Below, in pieces: positions 2,832 to 53,396 of a stretch of 64,000 bases of DNA; position 1 is the stretch's first letter, and each line of letters begins with the position of its first letter. The DNA is from a methane-oxidizing endosymbiont of Gigantopelta aegis. GTDB taxonomy: Bacteria; Pseudomonadota; Gammaproteobacteria; Methylococcales; Methylomonadaceae. The position numbers and the translations under genes are program-made. Location of the stretch: positions 73,876-137,875 of the forward strand of contig NZ_JAEHGD010000002.1 in assembly GCF_016097405.1 (NCBI RefSeq), in the 5' to 3' direction. Under the pieces are notes generated by a model that ran no database searches, was not told the origin of the DNA, and was given only the letters and a program-made list of their open reading frames with translations.

Positions 2832-3215
2832 ATGAATTTTGAAAAAGTTGTTTTTGGTTTTTTTGTCGTTTTAGCACTCACATTGAATTTCGGTTTCTTT
2901 CTTGGTGAGCTTGATAATCCTGCACATCATAGTGTGTTCGAGCTATTTGCCGTTATTATTGTTAATTTTATCGCAACGGTTTTAAAGTTTGGTGATCGCT
3001 CACAAATTGGTGCGGTATTGTTGGCAACGAGCCTGGTGGCTGATTTACAGCTGGTGGCGGCGGCAACTTATTGGACGGTTGTGGTGCATGTGACCGAAAC
3101 CGGGTTAACGCCAGAAGTGATGGCCAGTATCGTTTCTTTTACGGGCGGTGCCTTGATTGCCAATATCATATCAGCTGTGATTTTGGTTGCCGAAACATTA
3201 ATGTCACGGCTATAA
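2832..3215 (+). CDS. Small conserved integral membrane protein (DUF6394-like)
   Basis: This is a 127-residue protein with about four hydrophobic segments (residues 5-25, 38-55, 60-80 and 100-122) and no cofactor motif. I recognise it only tentatively as the DUF6394 type of uncharacterised membrane protein. The sequence TAAGGTAATGCA before the ATG gives a plausible ribosome-binding site. It is followed 26 bp later by a potassium-channel-like RCK protein on the same strand, so the two are probably one operon and may form a complex. Function is unknown. Confidence 0.75.
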   Translation: MNFEKVVFGFFVVLALTLNFGFFLGELDNPAHHSVFELFAVIIVNFIATVLKFGDRSQIGAVLLATSLVADLQLVAAATYWTVVVHVTETGLTPEVMASIVSFTGGALIANIISAVILVAETLMSRL

Positions 3216-3241
3216 ATAGCGTTCAGGCGGTCTTAATTCCT

Positions 3242-5011
3242 ATGGCAGATGTCGTTGATATAAGCAGAGTTTCTTTTATTGTCATGCGCGAAATGCGCAC
3301 GCCAATTATTGCACTGATTGTTGTTTATGCCATATCTATTCTTGGAATGGTTTTTATTCCAGGGCCGGTTATTGATGGAAAAACGCAGTATATGAGTATT
3401 TTTCATGCGTTTTATTTCATGACTTACACGGCAACGACAACGGGTTTCGGTGAAATTCCAATACCGTTTAGTGATGCGCAACGATTTTGGGCAATTGCTT
3501 GTCTGTATGTCAGTGTCATCACCTGGTTATATGCGATCGGGAGCATCATTCACTTGATGCAAAATCCATTTTTTATTCGGGCATTAGCCGAGTGGCGTTT
3601 TTCAAGGCAGGTGCGCAAGATTCCCGGGCCTTTTTTCATCATCTGTGGTTTTGGCGATACCGGCAGTGTGTTAACGCGCGGCTTGAGTGATTATGGTAAA
3701 TCCGCCGTGATTATCGATATTGACGAAGAGCGGATTAAAGCTTTACAGCTTCGTAACTATACGGTGTCTATGCCGGGGCTTTGTGCCGATGCCGGCGTGC
3801 CAAAACATTTGCTAGAAGCGGGTATTCGAAGTCGCCATTGCAAGGCTGTTGTGGCCATTACCAATAACGAAGAAAGCAATTTGAAAATATCGGCGTTGGC
3901 GCGCGCGTTAAATAAGAACGTGGGCATTATCACGATGTCGAAAGTCGATGTATTTGAGGAAACATTAGTGACCTTAGGCGGTGAAGTACATATCGTCGAT
4001 CCATTCAAAACCTATGCCAAGGTGTTAGCGGCGGCCATGCATAATCCTGGCTTTTATGCCTTGAATAATTGGCTGGTACGGGATCGTGGGGCGCGGCTGG
4101 ATAAATATGTCAAGCCACCACAAGGAACCTGGATAATTTGTGGTTACGGGCGAATGGGGCATGAGGTTAACCGGGTGTTGACCAAATATAATATGAGAAC
4201 ATCGATTATCGACCCGGACCCCAAGAACACGACAAAAAACGAATATATCGAACATTATATCGTTGGTCGAACCACAGCTAAGACTTTATCGCAAGCCGGG
4301 ATAGAGAATTCAGTCGGTATCATTGCAGCGACCGACGATGATGGCCATAATTTGGGTATTTTGTTGAATGCTCGCTATTTCAACAAGAATTTATTTACCA
4401 TTGTTCGACAAAATCGACATCATAATGCAGTGGCATTCAATGCTTCGAATGTCGATATGATTATGCAGCCCTCTTTAGTCACTGCGCGAAAAATTCTATT
4501 CCTGTTGATTGCGCCGCTGCTAAAGAAGTTCTTCGGTTATCTGTTAGCGGATAAACCTGGCCGAGAAGCAGAAATGAAACAGGTTATCCGCTTGTTGCGT
4601 GAACGTATCGGCAAACGTAATCCACATTTGATTACAATTGAAGTTGATGAAGAACAGAGCAGTGCGTTGTTAAAACGATTACGATCGGGAAAGACAGTGC
4701 GTTTAGGCGATCTACAGCGCGACCCTAGAGACCGCGAGAAGCGGTTGGATATGGTTGTGTTTGTGATAAAGCAAGGGGATCAAGAATATATTTTGCCGAA
4801 AGATGATTTTAAGGTGAAAGAGGGTGACCAAATTCTGTTTTGCTCGACGCGTTTAGCCCATCGTTTGTTTAATGCAACATTGAATAATGAGTACAATCTG
4901 TTTTATGTGCTAGAAGGCAAGTATTTACCTAGAAGCAGCTTGATTCGATGGTGGTTGGCCAAAAGAGGCAAAAAAGGGCTGGTGCCAGGTAAATTTAAAG
5001 CCGAAGCTTGA
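3242..5011 (+). CDS. K+ channel-like membrane protein with tandem RCK (TrkA-N) domains
   Basis: This is a probable ligand-gated ion channel of 589 residues. The N-terminus has two transmembrane helices flanking a pore loop with the filter-like TATTTGFGEI, a variant of the canonical TVGYGD, so K+ selectivity is likely but not certain. Two Rossmann RCK domains follow, with nucleotide-binding glycines GFGDTG (about residue 140) and GYGRMG (about 300), then a TrkA-C-like region (about 470-560). I placed the start at the ATG at 3242; the open frame extends upstream into the preceding gene but without domain content. It ends near the convergent ispH, with a GC-rich hairpin in the gap. Confidence 0.85.
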   Translation: MADVVDISRVSFIVMREMRTPIIALIVVYAISILGMVFIPGPVIDGKTQYMSIFHAFYFMTYTATTTGFGEIPIPFSDAQRFWAIACLYVSVITWLYAIGSIIHLMQNPFFIRALAEWRFSRQVRKIPGPFFIICGFGDTGSVLTRGLSDYGKSAVIIDIDEERIKALQLRNYTVSMPGLCADAGVPKHLLEAGIRSRHCKAVVAITNNEESNLKISALARALNKNVGIITMSKVDVFEETLVTLGGEVHIVDPFKTYAKVLAAAMHNPGFYALNNWLVRDRGARLDKYVKPPQGTWIICGYGRMGHEVNRVLTKYNMRTSIIDPDPKNTTKNEYIEHYIVGRTTAKTLSQAGIENSVGIIAATDDDGHNLGILLNARYFNKNLFTIVRQNRHHNAVAFNASNVDMIMQPSLVTARKILFLLIAPLLKKFFGYLLADKPGREAEMKQVIRLLRERIGKRNPHLITIEVDEEQSSALLKRLRSGKTVRLGDLQRDPRDREKRLDMVVFVIKQGDQEYILPKDDFKVKEGDQILFCSTRLAHRLFNATLNNEYNLFYVLEGKYLPRSSLIRWWLAKRGKKGLVPGKFKAEA

Positions 5012-44963: not shown

Positions 44964-45890
44964 ATGATTAAACAGCGTACATTAAAGAACACGATTCGGG
45001 CAACCGGTGTTGGGTTACATTCAGGTGATAAAGTTTATCTGACTTTACATCCAGCAGAACCTGATACTGGTATTCGATTTCGTCGGGTGGATTTAGATCC
45101 GCCCGTCGTGATTGAAGCGCGTCCTGAAAATGTGGGCGAAACCATGTTGTCGACAACATTGGTTAAGGAAGGCGTAAAAATTGCCACGGTTGAGCATCTT
45201 TTGTCCGCGATGGCGGGTTTAGGTGTCGATAATGCGATAGTCGATGTGAGCGCTGCTGAAGTTCCTATTATGGATGGAAGCGCTGGCCCCTTTGTGTTTT
45301 TATTGCAATCGGCAGGACTCGCCGAGCAAGAGGCGGCAAAAAAATATATTCGTATTAAGCAAGCTATACGGGTGGAAGAGGGTGATAAATGGGCTGCCTT
45401 TGAACCCTTTGACGGGTTTAAAGTGACCTTTACCATTGATTTCGAGCACCCGGCGTTTCCAGATCATTTAAAAACGGCGGTGATGGATTTTTCCTCAACC
45501 ACGTTTGTAAAAGAAGTCAGTCGGGCTAGGACCTTTGGCTTTATGCGGGATATTGAGTTCTTGCGTGAAAATAATTTGGCCCTAGGTGGAAGTCTTGATA
45601 ATGCCATTGTGGTTGATGACGATAAAGTCTTGAATGAAGATGGCTTGCGCTATGCAGATGAGTTTGTAAAACATAAAATACTCGATGCGATTGGCGATCT
45701 GTATTTGTTAGGGCATAGTCTGATTGGTGAATTTAAGGGTTTTAAATCGGGCCATGCGTTAAACAATAAGCTGTTGCTCACCCTGTTGGAAAACACCGAT
45801 GCGTGGGAAATCATTGAATTCGAAAATGATGAAGATGCACCGATTTCATTTATGCGGTCAGCACAAACGCCTATCCCCCCTGTCAAATAA
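44964..45890 (+). CDS. lpxC: UDP-3-O-acyl-GlcNAc deacetylase LpxC
   Basis: LpxC is the zinc enzyme that commits UDP-acyl-GlcNAc to lipid A. The 308-residue protein has the zinc ligands in EHLLSAMAG (His, about residue 78) and in [16 protein letters not shown] (His and Asp, about 236-246). It is the last gene of the cluster, 108 bp after ftsZ, which leaves room for its own promoter. No secM/secA pair follows, unlike in enterobacteria. A strong bidirectional terminator lies just downstream. Confidence 0.97.
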
Positions 45891-45907: not shown

Positions 45908-45946
45908 AAATCAGCCCGGTATGCGAATCGCTTACCGGGCTGATTT
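45908..45946. terminator. Bidirectional terminator between lpxC and the HPF-fusion gene
   Basis: AAATCAGCCCGGTA (45908-45921) and TACCGGGCTGATTT (45933-45946) form a perfect 14-bp stem with an 11-nt loop. It is flanked by T residues on both strands (CGTTT on plus; five T residues on minus), between two convergent genes. Confidence 0.9.
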
Positions 45947-45949
45947 CGT

Positions 45950-47053
45950 TTAGCCTTTGAATTTATGTTCTAATTCAGTAAAAAGCTCGGGGCGATAGTT
46001 GCTTTTTTTAACCGAGTGCAGGACTGTTTTCACTGAAAAACCAACACCCTGACTTTTTTGTGCCGCATGATCGCTGATAAATTGTTCGGTCATATTCAAG
46101 AGCGATTCAACTACTGCCGTTTCAAGGGCTAAAATAGCCGCTATTTGTGGGACAGAGAAACCAAGCTGATTATGCAGAATACTGGCGCGGCGCCAGTTTT
46201 TCGGTAATTTGACCAATGACGATTGCAGTTCACGTTGCTGTGCGATGTTTTCTTCAGTGACAGCGGGTTCAGACGGAACCGGAATCAAATCTTCCAGCTT
46301 CAAGACTTCTTCAGGCTGATAAAATTCATAGATTTGGGTGTCGATATCATCTTCTGGAACAGTTGTTTCCAGACTGATCGCCTGACGGTTTTGCTGACTT
46401 TCTTGCACCGCCTGATCCAGAATATCCAGTGCCAACTTGAACAACCAGGATTTTGTGTCAAAATCCTGAGGTTTGTCGTCTTGTTTTTCAAATGCGGTGA
46501 CAATGGTTTCATCAACTAATTCATCCGGTAAAATATCCGCCGGCGTTAGATCATCGATGGCCTGTAAATAAGTGATTTCACGAACAGAAAAATCATATAA
46601 ATCGTCGAGATAATCGCGAATGCTATCAAACCAGTCTGATGCCTGTTGTTGTGTTTTTTGATCTATAGCCACAGGCTGGCTGGCAGCATCTGACAGTGGA
46701 TGCTTGACCAATTGTTTACGGCGGGCTTTGCGCTTCCATAAATGATGGTTTTTCAAGCGACTTTTGTATTTTTGCCCTTGTCGTTCTAGTTCGGAAAAAA
46801 CTTTGTTGATGACCTCGCGTACATCTTCGTTTTCTTCTTCGCCTGCGATATCTTTTTTAGGTAAATGCAGGGTCAGTCCAAGCCGATATAACGGTATTTT
46901 TTGATGTTTTTCCAGTGTGCCACGTAGTGTGGTATCTGTTCGAATCAAATCGCCCAGTTTATGCTCCAGGTCACCGGCTTTTTCTGCGATAAACTTCTTC
47001 AGGTTTTTTTTGTCGTTTTTATCAAAACCTTTGTAAGTTATTTGTAGTTTCAT
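45950..47053 (-). CDS. Fusion of HPF/RaiA-like domain with ECF sigma-factor-like regions
   Basis: This is a 367-residue protein of unusual architecture. Residues 1-100 resemble a ribosome hibernation factor domain of the HPF/RaiA family (MKLQITYKGFDKNDKKNLKK; LGLTLHLPKK; a final helix DVREVINKVFSELERQGQ). A basic linker follows (KRKARRKQLVKH). Residues about 150-215 look like sigma70 region 2 (VREITYLQAIDDLTP, PDELVDETIVTAFEK, SWLFKLALDILDQAV), and about 275-325 like region 4 with a helix-turn-helix (LPKNWRRASILHNQLGFSV, PQIAAILALETAVVESLL). Both assignments are by eye. If right, it could join ribosome inactivation with transcription control. It stands alone and shares a terminator with lpxC. 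Confidence 0.75.
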   Translation of the reverse strand: MKLQITYKGFDKNDKKNLKKFIAEKAGDLEHKLGDLIRTDTTLRGTLEKHQKIPLYRLGLTLHLPKKDIAGEEENEDVREVINKVFSELERQGQKYKSRLKNHHLWKRKARRKQLVKHPLSDAASQPVAIDQKTQQQASDWFDSIRDYLDDLYDFSVREITYLQAIDDLTPADILPDELVDETIVTAFEKQDDKPQDFDTKSWLFKLALDILDQAVQESQQNRQAISLETTVPEDDIDTQIYEFYQPEEVLKLEDLIPVPSEPAVTEENIAQQRELQSSLVKLPKNWRRASILHNQLGFSVPQIAAILALETAVVESLLNMTEQFISDHAAQKSQGVGFSVKTVLHSVKKSNYRPELFTELEHKFKG

Positions 47054-47194
47054 ATTTGTTCCTTATGTTGAATAGTGATTGTTTTTTAACAGAGACAGGT
47101 TCCCTTTCTTATTCATGGCGTCAAGCTTATACTAATTCAACCGCTTTAATAAAATAAAAACGCGGTGTTTCCATAATCAATGAGGAGGTGTGTG

Positions 47195-47752
47195 ATGAAA
47201 AAATTTATTTTTACATCCGTGATGTTGTTTGTAGCATTGACCGTACAGGCGGCCGATATCACTGCGGGAAAGAAAAAATCTGTGGTTTGTCAGGGATGTC
47301 ATGGTGCTAATGGTTTCAGTCAAAATTCAACTTGGCCAAATTTAGCCGGACAAACAGCATCTTATTTACAGTGGCAACTGAAAAAATTTAAATCGGGCGA
47401 GCGCCAATATGCGCCCATGAATACGATTGCCGCTGATTTGTCAGAGGCTGATATTGAAAATCTGGCCGCATTTTTCGCCTCACAGCCTGCACCAAAGCCG
47501 GCTGCAGCAGATGCCAAATTGGTTGAGCTGGGAAAATCAAAAGCTGCAATGTGTTTAGGTTGTCATGGTGGCAAAGCTGAAGGGCGAGGTCAATTTCCGC
47601 GCTTAGCAGGACAAAAGGCCGCTTATCTTGAAAAACAGTTGAAGGCTTTTAAATCGGGTGAACGCAAAGGAAGGCCGATGAATGCTATGGTAAACAGTTT
47701 ATCTAATGAGGATATCAAAGCGCTTAGTGCGTTTTTTAGCAGCTTGAAATAA
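47195..47752 (+). CDS. Periplasmic diheme cytochrome c (c4-like)
   Basis: This is an electron carrier of 185 residues. A cleavable signal peptide (MKKFIFTSVMLFVALTVQA) precedes two homologous class-I cytochrome domains with heme sites CQGCH (about residue 32) and CLGCH (about 121). Axial methionines are in YAPMNTIA and GRPMNAMV. The ATG at 47195 follows GAGGAGGTG; an upstream in-frame ATG at 47180 is unlikely. The neighbouring formate dehydrogenase cluster suggests a link to its electron transport, but it is divergent from it. Confidence 0.9.
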   Translation: MKKFIFTSVMLFVALTVQAADITAGKKKSVVCQGCHGANGFSQNSTWPNLAGQTASYLQWQLKKFKSGERQYAPMNTIAADLSEADIENLAAFFASQPAPKPAAADAKLVELGKSKAAMCLGCHGGKAEGRGQFPRLAGQKAAYLEKQLKAFKSGERKGRPMNAMVNSLSNEDIKALSAFFSSLK

Positions 47753-48119: not shown

Positions 48120-48149
48120 AAGGCGGATATTTTATCCGCCTTTTTATTT
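48120..48149 (+). terminator. Intrinsic terminator oriented on the plus strand
   Basis: AAGGCGGATA (48120-48129) and TATCCGCCTT (48133-48142) form a 10-bp stem with a 3-nt loop followed by TTTATTTC on the plus strand. The fdh gamma-subunit gene ends 2 bp away on the minus strand, where the tail would be A-rich, so the element terminates plus-strand transcription better. No plus-strand gene lies closer than the cytochrome. Confidence 0.7.
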
Positions 48150-49112
48150 CTTTAATGGAATTTCGGCTTTCTTTTGAGAAATAGACTCTGTATTTTGTTG
48201 TCCATCATTGTCAGCGGAGGATTTTTTTTCCAGTGCTTTTAGCCACAAGTCATGATGTTGTTTGGCCCAGGTCTTATCGACTTTACCGCTAATCATGCCT
48301 TCGAGTGCACCTTCAGTACCGATGGTGCCGATGTATATATGTGCTAGAGCGCCGACTATCAACAGTAATGCGGCAACAGAATGAATGATATGGCTGATCT
48401 GCATGACCAGGCGGTATTGTTCGAGATTGGGGAAATCCAGGTTCAGGCCGGTAACCGTGACTAGAAATCCCGCAGTCATCAATAGCCAGAACCATGCCTT
48501 CTCACCGCCATTCATACGGCCGGCCGAAGGATGTTTGTTGCCGATAAAGCCACCGAGTTGTTTGAACCAGAGCCAGTCAATTTGACTGAATTTGTTGTCT
48601 TCAAACCAGATAAGTCCCATCAGCGCTAGGCCAACACTGAATAACGGACCGGTATAGTTATGGATGATCTTGGCGAATTCGGCAAAGCTTGCAAACACCT
48701 CATGCCCCAGCCAGTCAATGATAAGGCTGCGACCGAACAGCAGGCTCAGGCCGGTGATCGCCAAAATAATAAACAGCGTGGCGGTATAAAAATGCAGCCA
48801 GCGTTCTTTTTTGTTCCAGCGTTCAATCATTTCGCCGCTGCGTGGTTCACTTAAACGGACTTTACCGCGGACAAGATAAAAACACGCTAAGGCAAACACA
48901 GTTAGTGCCAATACCCAGGCGCCGGTTCCGGCAATTAATTCATTGCGGATATAAAGCCATTGTGTGCCACTGGCTTGGATGAGTTTATTGGTCTCAACGC
49001 CCACGACAGCCGAGTAGCCTTCAACGCCTTCACGCACCTGTCGCCAGAATGTGCGTTCATCGGCCAGAGCCTGAACGCTCAGTAACAATAAAAAGGGAAA
49101 TAAACGAAACAT
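48144..49112 (-). CDS. Formate dehydrogenase cytochrome b556 (gamma) subunit
   Basis: This is the membrane subunit that takes electrons from the Fe-S subunit to quinone. The 322-residue protein has a signal-like N-terminus (MFRLFPFLLLLSVQALA), then about five transmembrane helices. KKERWLHFYTATLFIILAITGL, FAEFAKIIHNYTGPLF and LVMQISHIIHSVAALLLI hold the histidines expected to bind two b hemes. A hydrophilic charged tail ends the protein. It is the last gene of the fdh operon, 2 bp after the beta subunit gene. Confidence 0.93.
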   Translation of the reverse strand: MFRLFPFLLLLSVQALADERTFWRQVREGVEGYSAVVGVETNKLIQASGTQWLYIRNELIAGTGAWVLALTVFALACFYLVRGKVRLSEPRSGEMIERWNKKERWLHFYTATLFIILAITGLSLLFGRSLIIDWLGHEVFASFAEFAKIIHNYTGPLFSVGLALMGLIWFEDNKFSQIDWLWFKQLGGFIGNKHPSAGRMNGGEKAWFWLLMTAGFLVTVTGLNLDFPNLEQYRLVMQISHIIHSVAALLLIVGALAHIYIGTIGTEGALEGMISGKVDKTWAKQHHDLWLKALEKKSSADNDGQQNTESISQKKAEIPLKK

Positions 49113-49114
49113 GA

Positions 49115-49729
49115 TCAGTCTTTATAGGCTGTTTTCCAGCCCCACAATTTTGGACTGGCGGCTGAATTATTGGGTTCTTCCTGGTTTAACTGGCGCTGAA
49201 TGGCGCGTTGCGAAAACAGTTTAGCGATTACATCGCCATCACCCGCGAGCAGAGCCTTGGTCGAACACATTTCAGCACAAATCGGTAATTTTCCTTCAGC
49301 TAGTCGGTTACGGCCATATTTTTCAAATTCGGCTTCGGAAAAATCTTCTTCAGGCCCGCCGGCACAAAAGGTGCATTTATCCATTTTGCCACGATTGCCG
49401 AAAGCGCCATCCTGCGGAAACTGAGGTGCACCAAATGGACAGGCATAAAAACAATAACCACAACCAATGCAGAGGTCTTTATCGTGTAAAACTACGCCAT
49501 CTGAAGTGGTATAAAAACAATCGACCGGACAGACTTGGGCACAGGGTGCGTCGGAGCAATGCATACAGGCAACTGAAATACTGGTTTCGCCGGCCTGACC
49601 ATCATTCAGCGTGACAACACGCCGGCGATTGACGCCCCAAGGCACTTCGTGTTCGTTTTTACAGGCGGTGATACAAGCATTGCATTCGATGCAGCGATCA
49701 TCATCACAAATAAACTTCATTCTGGCCAT
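49115..49729 (-). CDS. Formate dehydrogenase iron-sulfur (beta) subunit
   Basis: This is a 204-residue ferredoxin-like subunit that wires the catalytic subunit to cytochrome b. It has four cysteine clusters suited to [4Fe-4S] centres: CDDDRCIECNACITACKNEH (residues 8-27), CMHCSDAPCAQVCPVDC, CIGCGYCFYACPFGAP and CTFCAGG with a late CAEMC. There is no C-terminal membrane helix, unlike E. coli FdnH, so anchoring must come from the gamma subunit. It is 10 bp downstream of the catalytic subunit gene. Confidence 0.94.
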   Translation of the reverse strand: MARMKFICDDDRCIECNACITACKNEHEVPWGVNRRRVVTLNDGQAGETSISVACMHCSDAPCAQVCPVDCFYTTSDGVVLHDKDLCIGCGYCFYACPFGAPQFPQDGAFGNRGKMDKCTFCAGGPEEDFSEAEFEKYGRNRLAEGKLPICAEMCSTKALLAGDGDVIAKLFSQRAIQRQLNQEEPNNSAASPKLWGWKTAYKD

Positions 49730-49739
49730 CTATAGGCTC

Positions 49740-52607
49740 CTAGGCTTTGCGCAAACGGCATAAAGAAACTTTAGTTTCCTGCATCGCGGTTACTGAATCA
49801 TAACCATAAGTAAACACGGTATTGCAGGATTCACCGAGTACATAAGGCACCGTTCCTTCAGGATATTTATCCGCCAGGCTTTGGCCTTGATAGTGGCCGG
49901 CAAAATGAAAGGGCATAAATACCAGTCCTCGGCTTACCCGCTCGGTTATAAATGCCATAACTTGGATACGACCGCCTTCCGGCCCTTCCACCCATACTTG
50001 CTCGCCGTGTTTGACGCCGGCATTATTGGCATCGGCTGGATGGATTTCGACAAACATGTGTTGTTGCAGTTCCGCCAGCCACGGATTGGAGCGGGTTTCC
50101 TCGCCGCCACCTTCGTATTCCACCAGGCGGCCACTGGTCATAGTCAAGGGATAATCCTTGCTGTAATCAATTTTTTGTATTGATGCATAACGGGTAGGCA
50201 GACGGTAAAAGCTTTTCCGATCCTTATAGGTTGGAAACGCTTTAACCATATCGCGGCGATTGCTGTACAGCGGTTCACGATGAATCGGTATTGGGTCAGG
50301 AAATTGCCAGACGATGCAACGTGCCTTAGCATTGCCAAAGGGCGCGCAGCCATGTTTGATGGCAACTCGCTGAATACCGCCAGATAGATCAGTCTTCCAA
50401 TTTTTACCATCGGCCAGCTGTTTTTCGGATGTCGTTAAATCATCCCACCAGCCAAGTTGTTTTAACAAATCGGCGCTGAATTCGGGATAGCCTTGTTTGA
50501 TTTCCGAGCCTTTGCTGTAAGAGCCTTCTGCCAGCAGACTGACGCCATCACGTTCTATCCCAAAACGGGCGCGGAATGTCAGTCCGCCTTCGGCTACGGG
50601 TTTGCTGGTGTCGTATAACAATGGCGTACCTGGATGCTTTTGTTCCGGCGTTCCCCAACAGGGCCAAGGCAGGCCAAAATATTCGCCATCGCAGGGGCCG
50701 CCTTCGGCTTTCAGTGTTGTGGTATTGAAGGTATGCCAGTTTTGCTGGTGTTTTTTGATGCGTTCGACACTTTGTCCGGTGTAGCCTATCGTCCAGGCAC
50801 CGCGGTTGAATTCGCGGGTAATGTCCTCAATCGATGGTGTCGAGTCTTCAACCCGGATATGCTTGAACATGGGTTCGGCAAAGCCTAATTTTTCCGCAAA
50901 CTGATACAAAATCTGATGATCGGGGCGGGATTCAAATAGCGGCTCGATTACCTGGTCGCGCCATTGCAGGGAGCGATTGGATGAGGTCAGCGAGCCGTAA
51001 GTTTCAAACTGAGTGCAGGCGGGCAATAAATAGGTATTGTCCGGCCGGTCATGCAGCACCGCACTGTTGCTGGGATAGGGGTCTATCACGACCAGCAGGT
51101 CGAGTTTTTCCATAGCTTGCTTCATTTCCGGAGAACGGGTTTGGCTGTTCGGAGCATGTCCCCAAAACACCATGGCGCGGATATTATCTTTTTGTGCGAT
51201 AAGTTCGGGCTTTTCTAGCACGCCATCGATCCAGCGAGAAACTGGAATGCCGCTCATGTTCATGGTGCGTTTTTTACCCCCCGCGCCATCATCGTACAAG
51301 GCCGGATCGAAACGCTTGGATAGCCAGTTATAATCGATATCCCATACGCGAGCCCAATGTTTCCAGGCCGCTTCGGTTAGGCCATAATAAGCGGGTAGAG
51401 TATGCGCATTCGGGCCTAAATCGGTGGCACCTTGAACATTGTCATGACCACGGAAAATATTGGTGCCGCCACCGGCCACGCCCATGTTTCCCAGCGCTAG
51501 TTGGAAAATGCAATAAGCCCGGGTATTGTTATTGCCAATGGTGTGTTGCGTACCCCCCATACACCAGATGAAAGTGCCGGGCCGGTGAGTCGCCATGGTT
51601 TTGGCGGCCTGGAAAACCTCGGCCTCCGGCACACCGGTGACTTGTTCGACTTTGTCCGGCGTCCATTCGGCAACTTCCTTGCGAATCGTATCCATGCCAT
51701 AGACGCGCTGTTGAATAAAGTTTTTATCTTCCCAGCCATTTTCAAAAATATGCCATAACATACCCCAAATCAACGGCACATCAGTGCCTGGACGCAGCCT
51801 GATATGCTGGGTTGCGTGGGCAGCGGTACGGGTAAAACGTGGATCGATGACAATCAATGGTGCACCCTGTTCCTTGGCTTTGAAAATATGTTGCATGGAA
51901 ACCGGATGTGCCTCAGCCGGATTGCCGCCAATAATCAGGATGGCCTTGCTGTTGTGAATATCGTTAAAAGAATTGGTCATCGCGCCATAACCCCAGGTGT
52001 TGGCAACGCCGGCAACAGTGGTGGAATGGCAGATGCGGGCCTGGTGGTCGATGTTATTAGACCCCCAAAAGGCTGCGAATTTGCGGAATAGGTAGCTTTG
52101 TTCGTTATTATGCTTAGAAGATCCGAGCCAGTAGACAGAGTCGGGGCCGGATTGCTGACGGATTTCCAGAATTTTATCACCGATTTCATCGATGGCCTGC
52201 TGCCAGTCAATGCGTTTCCATTTCCCATCTATCCGTTTCATTGGATATTTCAGGCGGCGGTCGCCATGACCATGTTCACGTACTGCAGCACCTTTAGCGC
52301 AATGGGCACCAAGGTTGAAGGGGTGATCAAATGCAGGCTCCTGGCCGACCCAGACGCCATTTTCGACTTCAGCAATTACGCCGCAACCGACCGAACAATG
52401 GGTGCAGACAGAACGAATGGTTTTAATGTCTGTAGATGCTTGCTCAGACTGCTCTGTCGCTTCGGCCTTTTCCATTAAGGTGAAAGGTAATTGACTACTC
52501 AATGCAGCGCCCCCGGCTGCCAGAGAGCTGTGTTTTAAAAAGGTTCTGCGGTCGAGGGTGTTTTCAGACTTGTTTTCAACAGAAGTTGAACGTTTGATAA
52601 GTTTCAT
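49740..52607 (-). CDS. fdhA: Formate dehydrogenase catalytic (alpha) subunit, Tat-exported
   Basis: This molybdopterin enzyme oxidises formate to CO2. The 955-residue protein starts with a Tat signal (DRRTFLKHSSLAAGGA, twin Arg at 20-21), so it works in the periplasm. Cys68, Cys71, Cys75 and Cys103 bind a [4Fe-4S] cluster. The metal ligand is Cys193 followed by His194 (ARICHSTT), so this is a cysteine, not a selenocysteine, enzyme. A C-terminal molydopterin dinucleotide-binding domain (LTMTSGRLVEYEGGG onward) completes it. Mo or W cannot be decided. Confidence 0.94.
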   Translation of the reverse strand: MKLIKRSTSVENKSENTLDRRTFLKHSSLAAGGAALSSQLPFTLMEKAEATEQSEQASTDIKTIRSVCTHCSVGCGVIAEVENGVWVGQEPAFDHPFNLGAHCAKGAAVREHGHGDRRLKYPMKRIDGKWKRIDWQQAIDEIGDKILEIRQQSGPDSVYWLGSSKHNNEQSYLFRKFAAFWGSNNIDHQARICHSTTVAGVANTWGYGAMTNSFNDIHNSKAILIIGGNPAEAHPVSMQHIFKAKEQGAPLIVIDPRFTRTAAHATQHIRLRPGTDVPLIWGMLWHIFENGWEDKNFIQQRVYGMDTIRKEVAEWTPDKVEQVTGVPEAEVFQAAKTMATHRPGTFIWCMGGTQHTIGNNNTRAYCIFQLALGNMGVAGGGTNIFRGHDNVQGATDLGPNAHTLPAYYGLTEAAWKHWARVWDIDYNWLSKRFDPALYDDGAGGKKRTMNMSGIPVSRWIDGVLEKPELIAQKDNIRAMVFWGHAPNSQTRSPEMKQAMEKLDLLVVIDPYPSNSAVLHDRPDNTYLLPACTQFETYGSLTSSNRSLQWRDQVIEPLFESRPDHQILYQFAEKLGFAEPMFKHIRVEDSTPSIEDITREFNRGAWTIGYTGQSVERIKKHQQNWHTFNTTTLKAEGGPCDGEYFGLPWPCWGTPEQKHPGTPLLYDTSKPVAEGGLTFRARFGIERDGVSLLAEGSYSKGSEIKQGYPEFSADLLKQLGWWDDLTTSEKQLADGKNWKTDLSGGIQRVAIKHGCAPFGNAKARCIVWQFPDPIPIHREPLYSNRRDMVKAFPTYKDRKSFYRLPTRYASIQKIDYSKDYPLTMTSGRLVEYEGGGEETRSNPWLAELQQHMFVEIHPADANNAGVKHGEQVWVEGPEGGRIQVMAFITERVSRGLVFMPFHFAGHYQGQSLADKYPEGTVPYVLGESCNTVFTYGYDSVTAMQETKVSLCRLRKA

Positions 52608-52636
52608 ACCGATACCTTGTAGGCGGCAGAGAGCCG

Positions 52637-52825
52637 TTAAAAGTTGATTTTATTATAGTAATCACGGATATGCTGGGTTTCATGATAGCCTTGTGATGGC
52701 ATCGTTTGGGTGGTGGGGGGAGATTGATTTTTTGCTTTGCTTGAGGTTAACGTAAGCACGCTAGTTGCAGCACTTGCGCCGATTAGGGTTTTAAAAAACT
52801 GGCGACGATGATTATCAGGTTGCAT
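52637..52825 (-). CDS. Small Tat-signal protein of the formate dehydrogenase operon
   Basis: This is a 62-residue protein made mainly of a twin-arginine signal (HRRQFFKTLIGASAATSVLTL) and a short hydrophilic tail (YHETQHIRDYYNKINF). Similar short Tat proteins commonly precede fdh catalytic genes; the role is unknown. The ATG at 52825 has a GGGAGA ribosome-binding site 7 bp upstream, and the gene overlaps the TorD-like gene by 11 bp. An ATG at 52873 would hide the signal. Confidence 0.8.
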   Translation of the reverse strand: MQPDNHRRQFFKTLIGASAATSVLTLTSSKAKNQSPPTTQTMPSQGYHETQHIRDYYNKINF

Positions 52826-53396
52826 CTGTTTCTCCCGCGTATGGTATGGATAATGACCGGGCCTCAAGCGCAATAAAGGCTAGCCCTAATTCTGCCACTA
52901 TCGGGTAAAAATTACCAGTTGTAGTGGCTTTTAAATCGCTGAAAAAGTGTGCAAACCACGGTGCAATTGCATTCTGAAAAAAAACGTTTTGGTGCTCGCT
53001 TTGGTCTTGAATCAACAATGCCATGACTTCACAGATTGCGCTGATATGATCTTCAGGCTCACAGTTTTTTGGCTGACGTCGAATGCCCAGTTGTTTTAAC
53101 TGTTGGCGTAAGCTGGCTAAAGGCTTTTCCATCAAGAAGCCGGTTTGATACCAGGATAAATAAGGAACAAGCTCTCCGCGTCCTAGACCGATAAATAAAT
53201 GATGGTAGTCATCATCGAGCTGTTGAATATCAGCAGTTTTAGCGACAGAAATCAAGGTAGACAGTGCCTGGCTGAAGTTATCGTAACCTGTATTGACTTC
53301 AAGTTTACTAATCAGCTTCAGCAACGCCTGATCAGGAGCGGCACGAAACAATCGCGCTATTAACTGGTAAAAAAATAAGCGCTCTTCGTCGTTCAT
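52815..53396 (-). CDS. TorD/DmsD-family molybdoenzyme chaperone
   Basis: This is a probable cytoplasmic chaperone that holds the fdh catalytic subunit for cofactor insertion and Tat export. The 193-residue, mostly alpha-helical protein has the family segments YHHLFIGLGRGELVPYLSWYQTG (its core within residues 64-82), EDHISAICEVMALL and APWFAHFFSDL. It overlaps the upstream 4Fe-4S gene by 4 bp and sits immediately before the Tat-protein gene. Confidence 0.9.
   Translation of the reverse strand: MNDEERLFFYQLIARLFRAAPDQALLKLISKLEVNTGYDNFSQALSTLISVAKTADIQQLDDDYHHLFIGLGRGELVPYLSWYQTGFLMEKPLASLRQQLKQLGIRRQPKNCEPEDHISAICEVMALLIQDQSEHQNVFFQNAIAPWFAHFFSDLKATTTGNFYPIVAELGLAFIALEARSLSIPYAGETDAT

Follow-up and report, generated by a model that had tools for sequence, protein, structure and literature searches.

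Introduction

The hibernation factor HPF binds the 30S decoding region of the ribosome, and long HPF dimerises through its C-terminal domain. In the control of transcription, PhyR captures the anti-sigma factor NepR through a sigma-like domain and thereby frees the real sigma factor. A 2026 survey of HPF/RaiA-domain proteins, consulted in its accessible part, names lHPF, HPF, RaiA and HibA; the archaeal HibA is an HPF-type fusion with an unrelated module and acts on ribosomes (PMC13324472). Balon, a hibernation factor of baeRF family 10, is an unrelated protein. According to the accessible text of its description, Balon genes most often adjoin raiA, and their operons and neighbours include genes for RaiA, Hsp20, HdeD and alternative sigma70 factors (PMC10901736).

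A fusion of an HPF domain with a sigma-like part was not found described in the open-access papers searched, nor in the accessible text of the Balon paper (PMC10901736). Such a gene is present in the window, by which the whole analysed stretch of 64,000 nucleotides from a methane-oxidizing endosymbiont of Gigantopelta aegis is meant. Here, its domains, relatives and neighbours are described, and the functions that it might have are weighed.

Gene and Locus

The gene is one open reading frame of 367 amino acids with an ATG start, and the coordinates of its parts are collected in Table 1. In the basic tail that follows the HPF domain, R108, R111 and R112 are each present in 45 of 46 aligned family members. 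The region-2-like domain has D181 in place of Gln and D210 in place of Asn, and the region-4-like domain has lost the basic positions of the recognition helix. In the linker signature, E243 and P247 are invariant (46/46) and Q246 is present in 45/46 members.

Table 1. Features of the fusion gene in the window, with DsrC/TusE-like genes found upstream of related fusions.
Feature	Position	Strand	Evidence or remark
HPF/RaiA–sigma-mimic fusion, whole gene (mimic is the best reading)	45950..47053	-	family profiles, AlphaFold model, Foldseek
HPF/RaiA (S30AE) domain, residues 1-104	46742..47053	-	PF02482 and TIGR00741 above cut-off; HPF fold in model
Basic tail LWKRKARRKQLVK, residues 105-117	46703..46741	-	conserved Arg
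Sigma region-2-like domain, three helices, residues 132-224	46382..46660	-	profiles, model, alignment
Acidic linker, residues 225-266	46256..46381	-	signature (F/Y)E(F/Y)(Y/W)QP(D/E)E at 242-249
Sigma region-4-like helical domain, residues 267-332	46058..46255	-	profiles, Foldseek, alignment
Perfect inverted repeat, 14 bp	45908..45946	.	between 3' ends of convergent lpxC and fusion gene
DsrC/TusE-like genes	L015:4371-4901, L023:3771-4121		Pfam DsrC
DsrC/TusE-like genes	L016:7429-7959, L026:2749-3099		by eye

The convergent neighbour, lpxC (44964-45890), closes a ddl-ftsQ-ftsA-ftsZ-lpxC cluster; on its other side, the fusion gene is flanked by a divergent gene for a c-type cytochrome (47180-47752). 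These names were read from the translations. The inverted repeat is probably a terminator common to lpxC and the fusion gene. No sigma70-type promoter site was found on the minus strand between 45850 and 47250. Past the cytochrome gene, positions 48144-53396 hold a formate-dehydrogenase-like cluster (named by eye) with a 955-aa catalytic subunit, iron-sulfur and cytochrome b subunits and a small chaperone-like ORF.

A canonical HPF of 96 amino acids is encoded elsewhere in the same genome (L001:1495-1785, plus strand, contig C2), between rpoN (sigma54) and rapZ-like genes, these two neighbours, and not the HPF, having been named by eye. Since the genome already has this canonical hpf beside rpoN, the fusion represents an additional paralogue on the chromosome.

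Domain Architecture

The initial annotation had assigned the N-terminal 100 residues to an HPF/RaiA-like domain and two later segments to ECF-like sigma70 regions 2 and 4. That both folds occur in one protein is real and is confirmed here. For the N-terminal part the window protein itself is sufficient: PF02482 matches residues 4-101 (E 6.8e-10, 40 bits, cut-off 23.7), TIGR00741 matches residues 4-104 (41.1 bits, cut-off 40.9), and the AlphaFold model contains an HPF fold. The sigma assignment is weak from the window sequence alone and strong only at the level of the family. Many NCBIfam sigma models match residues 174-333, with a best E of 2.6e-7, and all of them stay under their curated cut-offs; TIGR02937 (sigma70-ECF) reaches E 8e-5 and 22.3 bits against a cut-off of 42.9, and the Pfam region 4 model Sigma70_r4_2 reaches E 0.082 and 13 bits against 25.7. 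Among PDB sequences, the window protein alone finds an HPF (6qbz, E 0.0015) and the ECF sigma CnrH (4cxf, E 0.0025).

Because the sigma matches of the single protein are modest by themselves, its family was assembled. A scan of genome contigs with the linker motif gave 156 stretches, of which 136 are relatives; the best 80 were retained as loci, and a set of 46 members was selected from these and the window protein. Over this set, Pfam finds S30AE in 36/46, Sigma70_r4_2 in 27/46 and Sigma70_r2 in 1/46 members (E ≤ 1e-3), and NCBIfam finds TIGR02937 in 37/46 (best 9.6e-18) and TIGR00741 in 14/46. In L024 and L027, S30AE and Sigma70_r4_2 are both above the Pfam cut-offs within a single protein. 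The 46-row profile finds SigG1 (7qh5, 7.4e-13), RpoE (1or7, 4.8e-10) and HPF (4v8h, 2.5e-8) among PDB sequences.

The predicted structures agree with the profiles. The AlphaFold model of the window protein (mean pLDDT 80.2) shows a beta-alpha-beta-beta-beta-alpha unit followed by three long helices and four more helices, and that of L083, a member of the type found in tLST heat-resistance islands, shows an HPF fold and then two helical bundles (pLDDT 81.7); both were interpreted without the packing between domains, as pTM was 0.55 and 0.61. Foldseek aligns the window model with HPF (4hei_B) at a TM-score of 0.88 and 1.8 A, and with the ECF factor RpoE (5uxx_C) at 0.76 but with an rmsd of 6.2 A, TM being normalised by target length. 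The L083 model gave 2 matches only at E ≤ 0.001; it aligns with HPF (3tqm_A) at 0.78 and with SigW at 0.67 and 8.9 A. Profiles and model together bear out the order of the domains and the basic linker that had been read from the sequence, and the earlier boundaries (1-100, 150-215 and 275-325) were correct to within about 20 residues.

With HPF, RaiA and YfiA (PF02482, TIGR00741), the fusion thus has in common an N-terminal domain above the cut-offs, the fold and a basic C-terminal helix; it differs in its added basic tail and a sigma-like part of 230 amino acids. Long HPF and HibA likewise join an HPF domain to a C- or N-terminal partner, but the partner is a dimerisation domain or a CBS module there and a sigma-like fold here. 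The ribosome-dimerisation domain of long HPF gave no Pfam match in the window protein at E ≤ 1, nor was a CBS module matched, and an identity with long HPF was rejected because this domain is absent.

Sequence Features of the Sigma-Like Half

The 46 members were aligned with 11 ECF-like sigma factors, chosen from 20 loci, and 4 PhyR proteins. The region-2.2 Gln, which we take to be a core contact, is present in 11/11 ECFs and replaced by Asp in 46/46 fusion members, so that region 2 does not keep at this position the core-polymerase-binding residue that the initial annotation had proposed to look for. The Asn of the WL..A.N motif, presumably a reader of the -10 element, is found in 9/11 ECFs, and Glu or Asp stands there in 37/46 fusion members. 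In region 4, position 316 is K/R in 11/11 ECFs vs 4/46 members, and position 318 is R/H in 10/11 vs 5/46. Residues of structural character are retained (W203 42/46, L204 46/46, A208 41/46, P284 44/46, R288 45/46).

The charge of the sigma part has changed as well. Its mean net charge is -22.9 (-35 to -11; window protein -26), compared with 0.1 in the ECFs (n=11) and -6.2 in PhyR (n=4). The recognition helix carries -1.9 on average (range -5 to +8) vs +3.1 in ECFs and -3.5 in PhyR, and region 2.3-2.4 carries -0.2 vs +4.6 and +0.2. Together with its tail, the HPF part is basic (mean +9.5; window protein +13), an indirect hint at binding to the 30S decoding region; the genome's own shorter HPF has a charge of 0, a comparison that is not like-for-like because the fusion value includes the tail.

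Judged from the alignment, a mimic is the best reading of the sigma half: its fold is retained, and other residues stand at the positions that ECFs conserve to contact core enzyme and read promoters. This reading rests on substitutions, and 2 of the 11 real ECFs also lack the consensus Asn. With an ECF sigma70 it has in common the folds of regions 2 and 4 and their order; the fusion differs from it in being strongly acidic, in its replaced consensus residues and, for the window protein, in scoring under the curated cut-offs. The suggestion that the fusion takes part in promoter choice is disfavoured, because these Gln, Asn and basic recognition-helix positions are replaced across the family. 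The other suggestion of the initial annotation, that an ex-sigma domain brings the factor to RNA polymerase, may hold, with an anti-sigma factor as the rival partner. As defining features of a sigma factor were looked for and found replaced, the fusion is grouped among the HPF/RaiA factors, where its architecture is new, rather than among the sigma factors.

A known parallel for such a half is PhyR, which is also a sigma fold without DNA-reading residues and has an acidic recognition helix too; PF22233 is matched by 5/46 fusion members at E ≤ 1e-3. The differences are that the fusion has an HPF domain instead of the C-terminal receiver of PhyR, that it is much more acidic, and that W203, found in 42 of the 46 members, is absent from 4/4 PhyR proteins. 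No receiver domain was matched in the window protein with Pfam or NCBIfam.

Distribution of the Fusion

The fusion is patchily distributed. It was found in 4/61 genomes, namely the window's own, G004 (86%), G011 (52%) and G007 (29%, residues 39-334, in an ORF of 362 aa), and three further genomes of the 61 match with the HPF part only (E 3.8e-4 to 8.9e-4). Within the genus, 1/5 other genomes has it. A class-wide search gave 16/369 genomes, the own one counted, with best E ≤ 2.6e-77; among these 16, a contig edge truncates the match in G183, and the one in G069 contains a TGA. Among 247 genomes of the phylum to which the Blastocatellia genome G426 belongs, 16 match at E ≤ 1e-20, G801 and G763 in part only. 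For the Nitrospirae genome G427, 8/148 genomes of its phylum match, G427 alone over both halves and the other 7 in the HPF part only. Seven Nitrospirota genomes contain stand-alone HPF-like proteins of about 116-123 aa (L133-L140), which match the HPF part of the fusion with E-values of 1e-21 to 1e-24, much more closely than the genome's own HPF does; their sequences suggest possible unfused relatives.

The nearest orthologue with a named record is L014 ('uncultured Methylococcaceae bacterium'). Among the best 80 of the 136 relatives, complete single ORFs of 338-395 aa are present at 76 loci; the ORFs of L021 and L028 are truncated by the ends of their contigs, that of L093 continues past the end of its contig, and L089 has a stop. 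Conserved single-gene orthologues of the same layout, which the initial annotation had named as a check, thus occur in several phyla, in isolates as well as in MAGs, and chance or an assembly artefact was rejected. A phylogeny was built from 43 proteins, of which 36 belong to the set of 46 members and 7 are others. It places the window protein within a gammaproteobacterial clade of 9 members (100/100), separate from the tLST1 type; support for the deepest fork is weak (81/43), and some of the Acidobacteriota have long branches.

Mobile elements were searched too. Among 50,697 phage records there was no match, and a phage origin was rejected. In plasmids, 278 of 72,556 records match, 217 of them across at least 80% of the query. 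Some of the plasmid relatives are labelled 'RNA polymerase subunit sigma-28' or 'flagellar biosynthesis protein FliA' in RefSeq, which indicates that annotation pipelines had already seen the sigma half.

Genomic Neighbourhoods

What the initial annotation did not foresee is that relatives lie in tLST-type islands and that some stand beside Balon, STAS or zinc-finger genes. Contexts were counted within 6 kb of the fusion at the best 80 of the 136 relatives. A homologue of Hsp20, ClpG/ClpK, FtsH, GroE or DnaK lies within this distance at 62/80 loci (ClpG/ClpK at 49, FtsH at 41, Hsp20 at 50, GroE/DnaK at 9, and HdeD at 41), counts that are not independent because the alphaproteobacterial islands are closely related, and many of the contigs are short. 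Other tLST genes only were found at 5/80 loci, and 13/80, most of the window clade among them, have none of the genes sought.

The Enterobacter relative is the 'hypothetical' orf11 of the tLST (also LHR or TLPQC) heat-resistance island, between hdeD-GI and trx-GI. Pfam alone gives no domain for it at E 0.01. A profile built without the four tLST1-like rows nevertheless finds it at 1.4e-60 over the whole length, 3.5e-14 with the N-part and 3.5e-38 with the C-part (E-values scaled to 177,635 sequences). orf11 is therefore homologous to the fusion across its full length; it differs in having about 24% identity to the window protein and in its location, the window gene being outside any such island. 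orf11 was found in 152/5426 complete E. coli genomes; in 144 of these the match spans 80% or more of the protein, and it is annotated as hypothetical among the matches listed. Up to 6 copies occur per E. coli genome (median 1).

As far as the accessible parts of two reports show, 7 of the 13 genes of tLST1 in E. coli are needed for heat or chlorine resistance, orf11 not being one of them, and lipid oxidation is the same without orf11 (PMC8407380); island proteomics detected 11 island proteins, one of them 'a hypothetical protein' (PMC7010813), which may be orf11. A tLST location of the window gene was rejected: its neighbours are lpxC and the c-type cytochrome gene, and the genome has no ClpK-like frame, since the only frames that a ClpK query recovers there measure 867 and 755 aa (41-54%), a ClpB/ClpA-like size.

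Three kinds of neighbour may hint at a link with hibernation or sigma control. In L024, L027 and L028, a small protein with the pattern C...HxxxCxxC is encoded 10-54 bp after the fusion; the three align with one another, that of L024 matches zf-HC2 at E 0.0049, under the cut-off, and the other two have no match. These came from a search of 103 loci that gave 8 ORFs, the position of the fusion being only approximate at 16 loci; the ORFs at L020, L042, L048, L089 and L101 look like wrong-frame ORFs and were rejected, and those of L024, L027 and L028 are convincing. Among the 17 Acidobacteriota loci (L123, L126 and L141-L155), a STAS protein follows the fusion in L126 and L146 (2/17), with an Hsp20 gene after it in L126, and a baeRF10 gene, a Balon homologue, lies downstream in L123 (which is L024), L143, L145 and L147 (4/17). 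In L024 the baeRF10 gene comes after the zinc-finger gene, and its protein, compared with PDB sequences, matches Balon MSMEG_1130 at 7.3e-14. Given the published Balon neighbourhoods, seen in part, some of the alternative sigma70 neighbours listed there (PMC10901736) could be HPF-sigma fusions. At other loci the neighbours are unrelated; L149-L153, for example, have an aminotransferase-like gene (by eye).

In the window's genome, neither zf-HC2 nor Balon gave a match at E ≤ 1e-3, the zf-HC2 control having matched in only 3/14 genomes. A partner switch is thus without an obvious partner there, as far as these two types go. Five sigma matches are over the cut-off in this genome, one of them read as ECF.

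Some further neighbours were observed. Four gammaproteobacterial MAGs have a DsrC/TusE-like gene just upstream of the fusion (Table 1), and in L026 a DUF1931 (histone-fold-like) gene lies between the two (3175-3621; PF09123, E 4e-51). Upstream of the fusion in L023, positions 70-2230 contain ORFs of a repeated MRPQQFAAEN phrase, which resembles a CRISPR array.

Possible Functions

The explanation preferred here, with moderate confidence, is that the protein is a factor of the ribosome-hibernation type whose acidic sigma mimic would bind RNA polymerase or an anti-sigma factor. Under stress or at rest, the N-terminal domain would bind idle ribosomes at the HPF site, and the acidic C-terminal part would bind a usual partner of a sigma factor, either core RNA polymerase or an anti-sigma factor. 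If the partner is polymerase, it would be held at idle ribosomes or kept from promoters; if it is an anti-sigma factor, the mimic might take it up and free the real sigma, by analogy with PhyR. In many relatives the fusion is part of a chaperone/protease island, and in the window's genome it is the extra paralogue. In favour of this explanation are the island context of 62/80 loci, both folds, the substitutions, the charge, the dN/dS values given below, and the Balon, STAS and zinc-finger neighbours. Against it count the window locus, which is not a stress island, the 13/80 loci without island genes, the missing zf-HC2 and Balon matches in the window's genome, the deletion of orf11, which the accessible text of PMC8407380 does not place among those lowering heat or chlorine survival, and the lack of a strong negative charge in PhyR. 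A more specific reading is put forward tentatively: the fusion might be a co-hibernation factor on idle ribosomes, where the mimic would hold RNA polymerase or an anti-sigma factor so that transcription and translation are stopped or re-programmed together. A version that moves between species within heat-resistance islands is included in this reading and shares its tentative grade. If it is true, the fusion would physically connect ribosome hibernation with the sigma-factor system, and joint control of resting ribosomes and RNA polymerase could thereby be tested with one purified protein.

The alternatives differ in what they make of the two halves. A pure ribosome factor, in which the sigma-like part is reused for structure, dimerising or binding of rRNA or protein, much as long HPF employs its C-terminal domain, without any link to transcription, is unlikely: the gone DNA-reading residues, the Balon homologues beside some fusions and the precedent of HibA (PMC13324472, in part) would suit it, but the region-2/region-4 pair and its linker are kept as a set that plain dimerisation does not need, and sigma-regulator-like genes stand next to some loci. 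Those same neighbours, the zinc-finger anti-sigma-like genes at L024, L027 and L028 and the STAS genes at L126 and L146, are the company of a real sigma factor. Together with the ECF superfamily model matching 37/46 members and the retained fold and hydrophobic core, they would fit a working ECF sigma that the HPF domain holds inactive on ribosomes and whose release turns on a stress regulon. This is decidedly unlikely and disfavoured: the recognition helix is no longer basic, the net charge stands at -23, and the Asn of WL..A.N and the region-2.2 Gln have been lost, the Gln also in the zinc-finger-associated L024, L027 and L028. FtsH, DnaK and GroEL control the heat-shock factor sigma32, and a mimic that occupies them as a decoy would raise the heat-shock response; the frequency of FtsH (41/80) and GroE/DnaK (9/80) within 6 kb speaks for this idea. 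It is nevertheless very improbable, for the fold is nearer to ECF than to RpoH models, the proteobacterial chromosomal members are distant from FtsH, and the HPF domain is left unexplained.

That the gene is a decaying relic without function is scarcely credible. The patchy distribution (1/5 other genomes of the genus), the Enterobacter orf11 without a Pfam domain at E 0.01 and its deletion, for which the accessible text of PMC8407380 reports no survival effect, could be read in this way; the complete ORFs at 76 of the best 80 loci and the dN/dS values speak against it. The window gene and L014, a single pair compared by Nei-Gojobori at dS 0.40, give an overall dN/dS of 0.19; for the parts, the values are 0.09 (HPF), 0.105 (region 2), 0.18 (linker) and 0.24 (region 4). 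The HPF and sigma halves are both under purifying selection, and a relic is disfavoured on this ground. In the tLST-type pair L083/L093, dN/dS is 0.47 at dS 0.11, so constraint in the tLST type looks weaker. The fusions of this pair, on a Lysobacteraceae contig (L083) and a Kocuria varians contig (L093), are 90% identical between a gammaproteobacterial and an actinobacterial record, which is a recent transfer or contamination. In L089 (Calditrichota), positions 1667-2416 encode a relative of residues 98-337 with an in-frame stop, possibly a decayed copy of the fusion.
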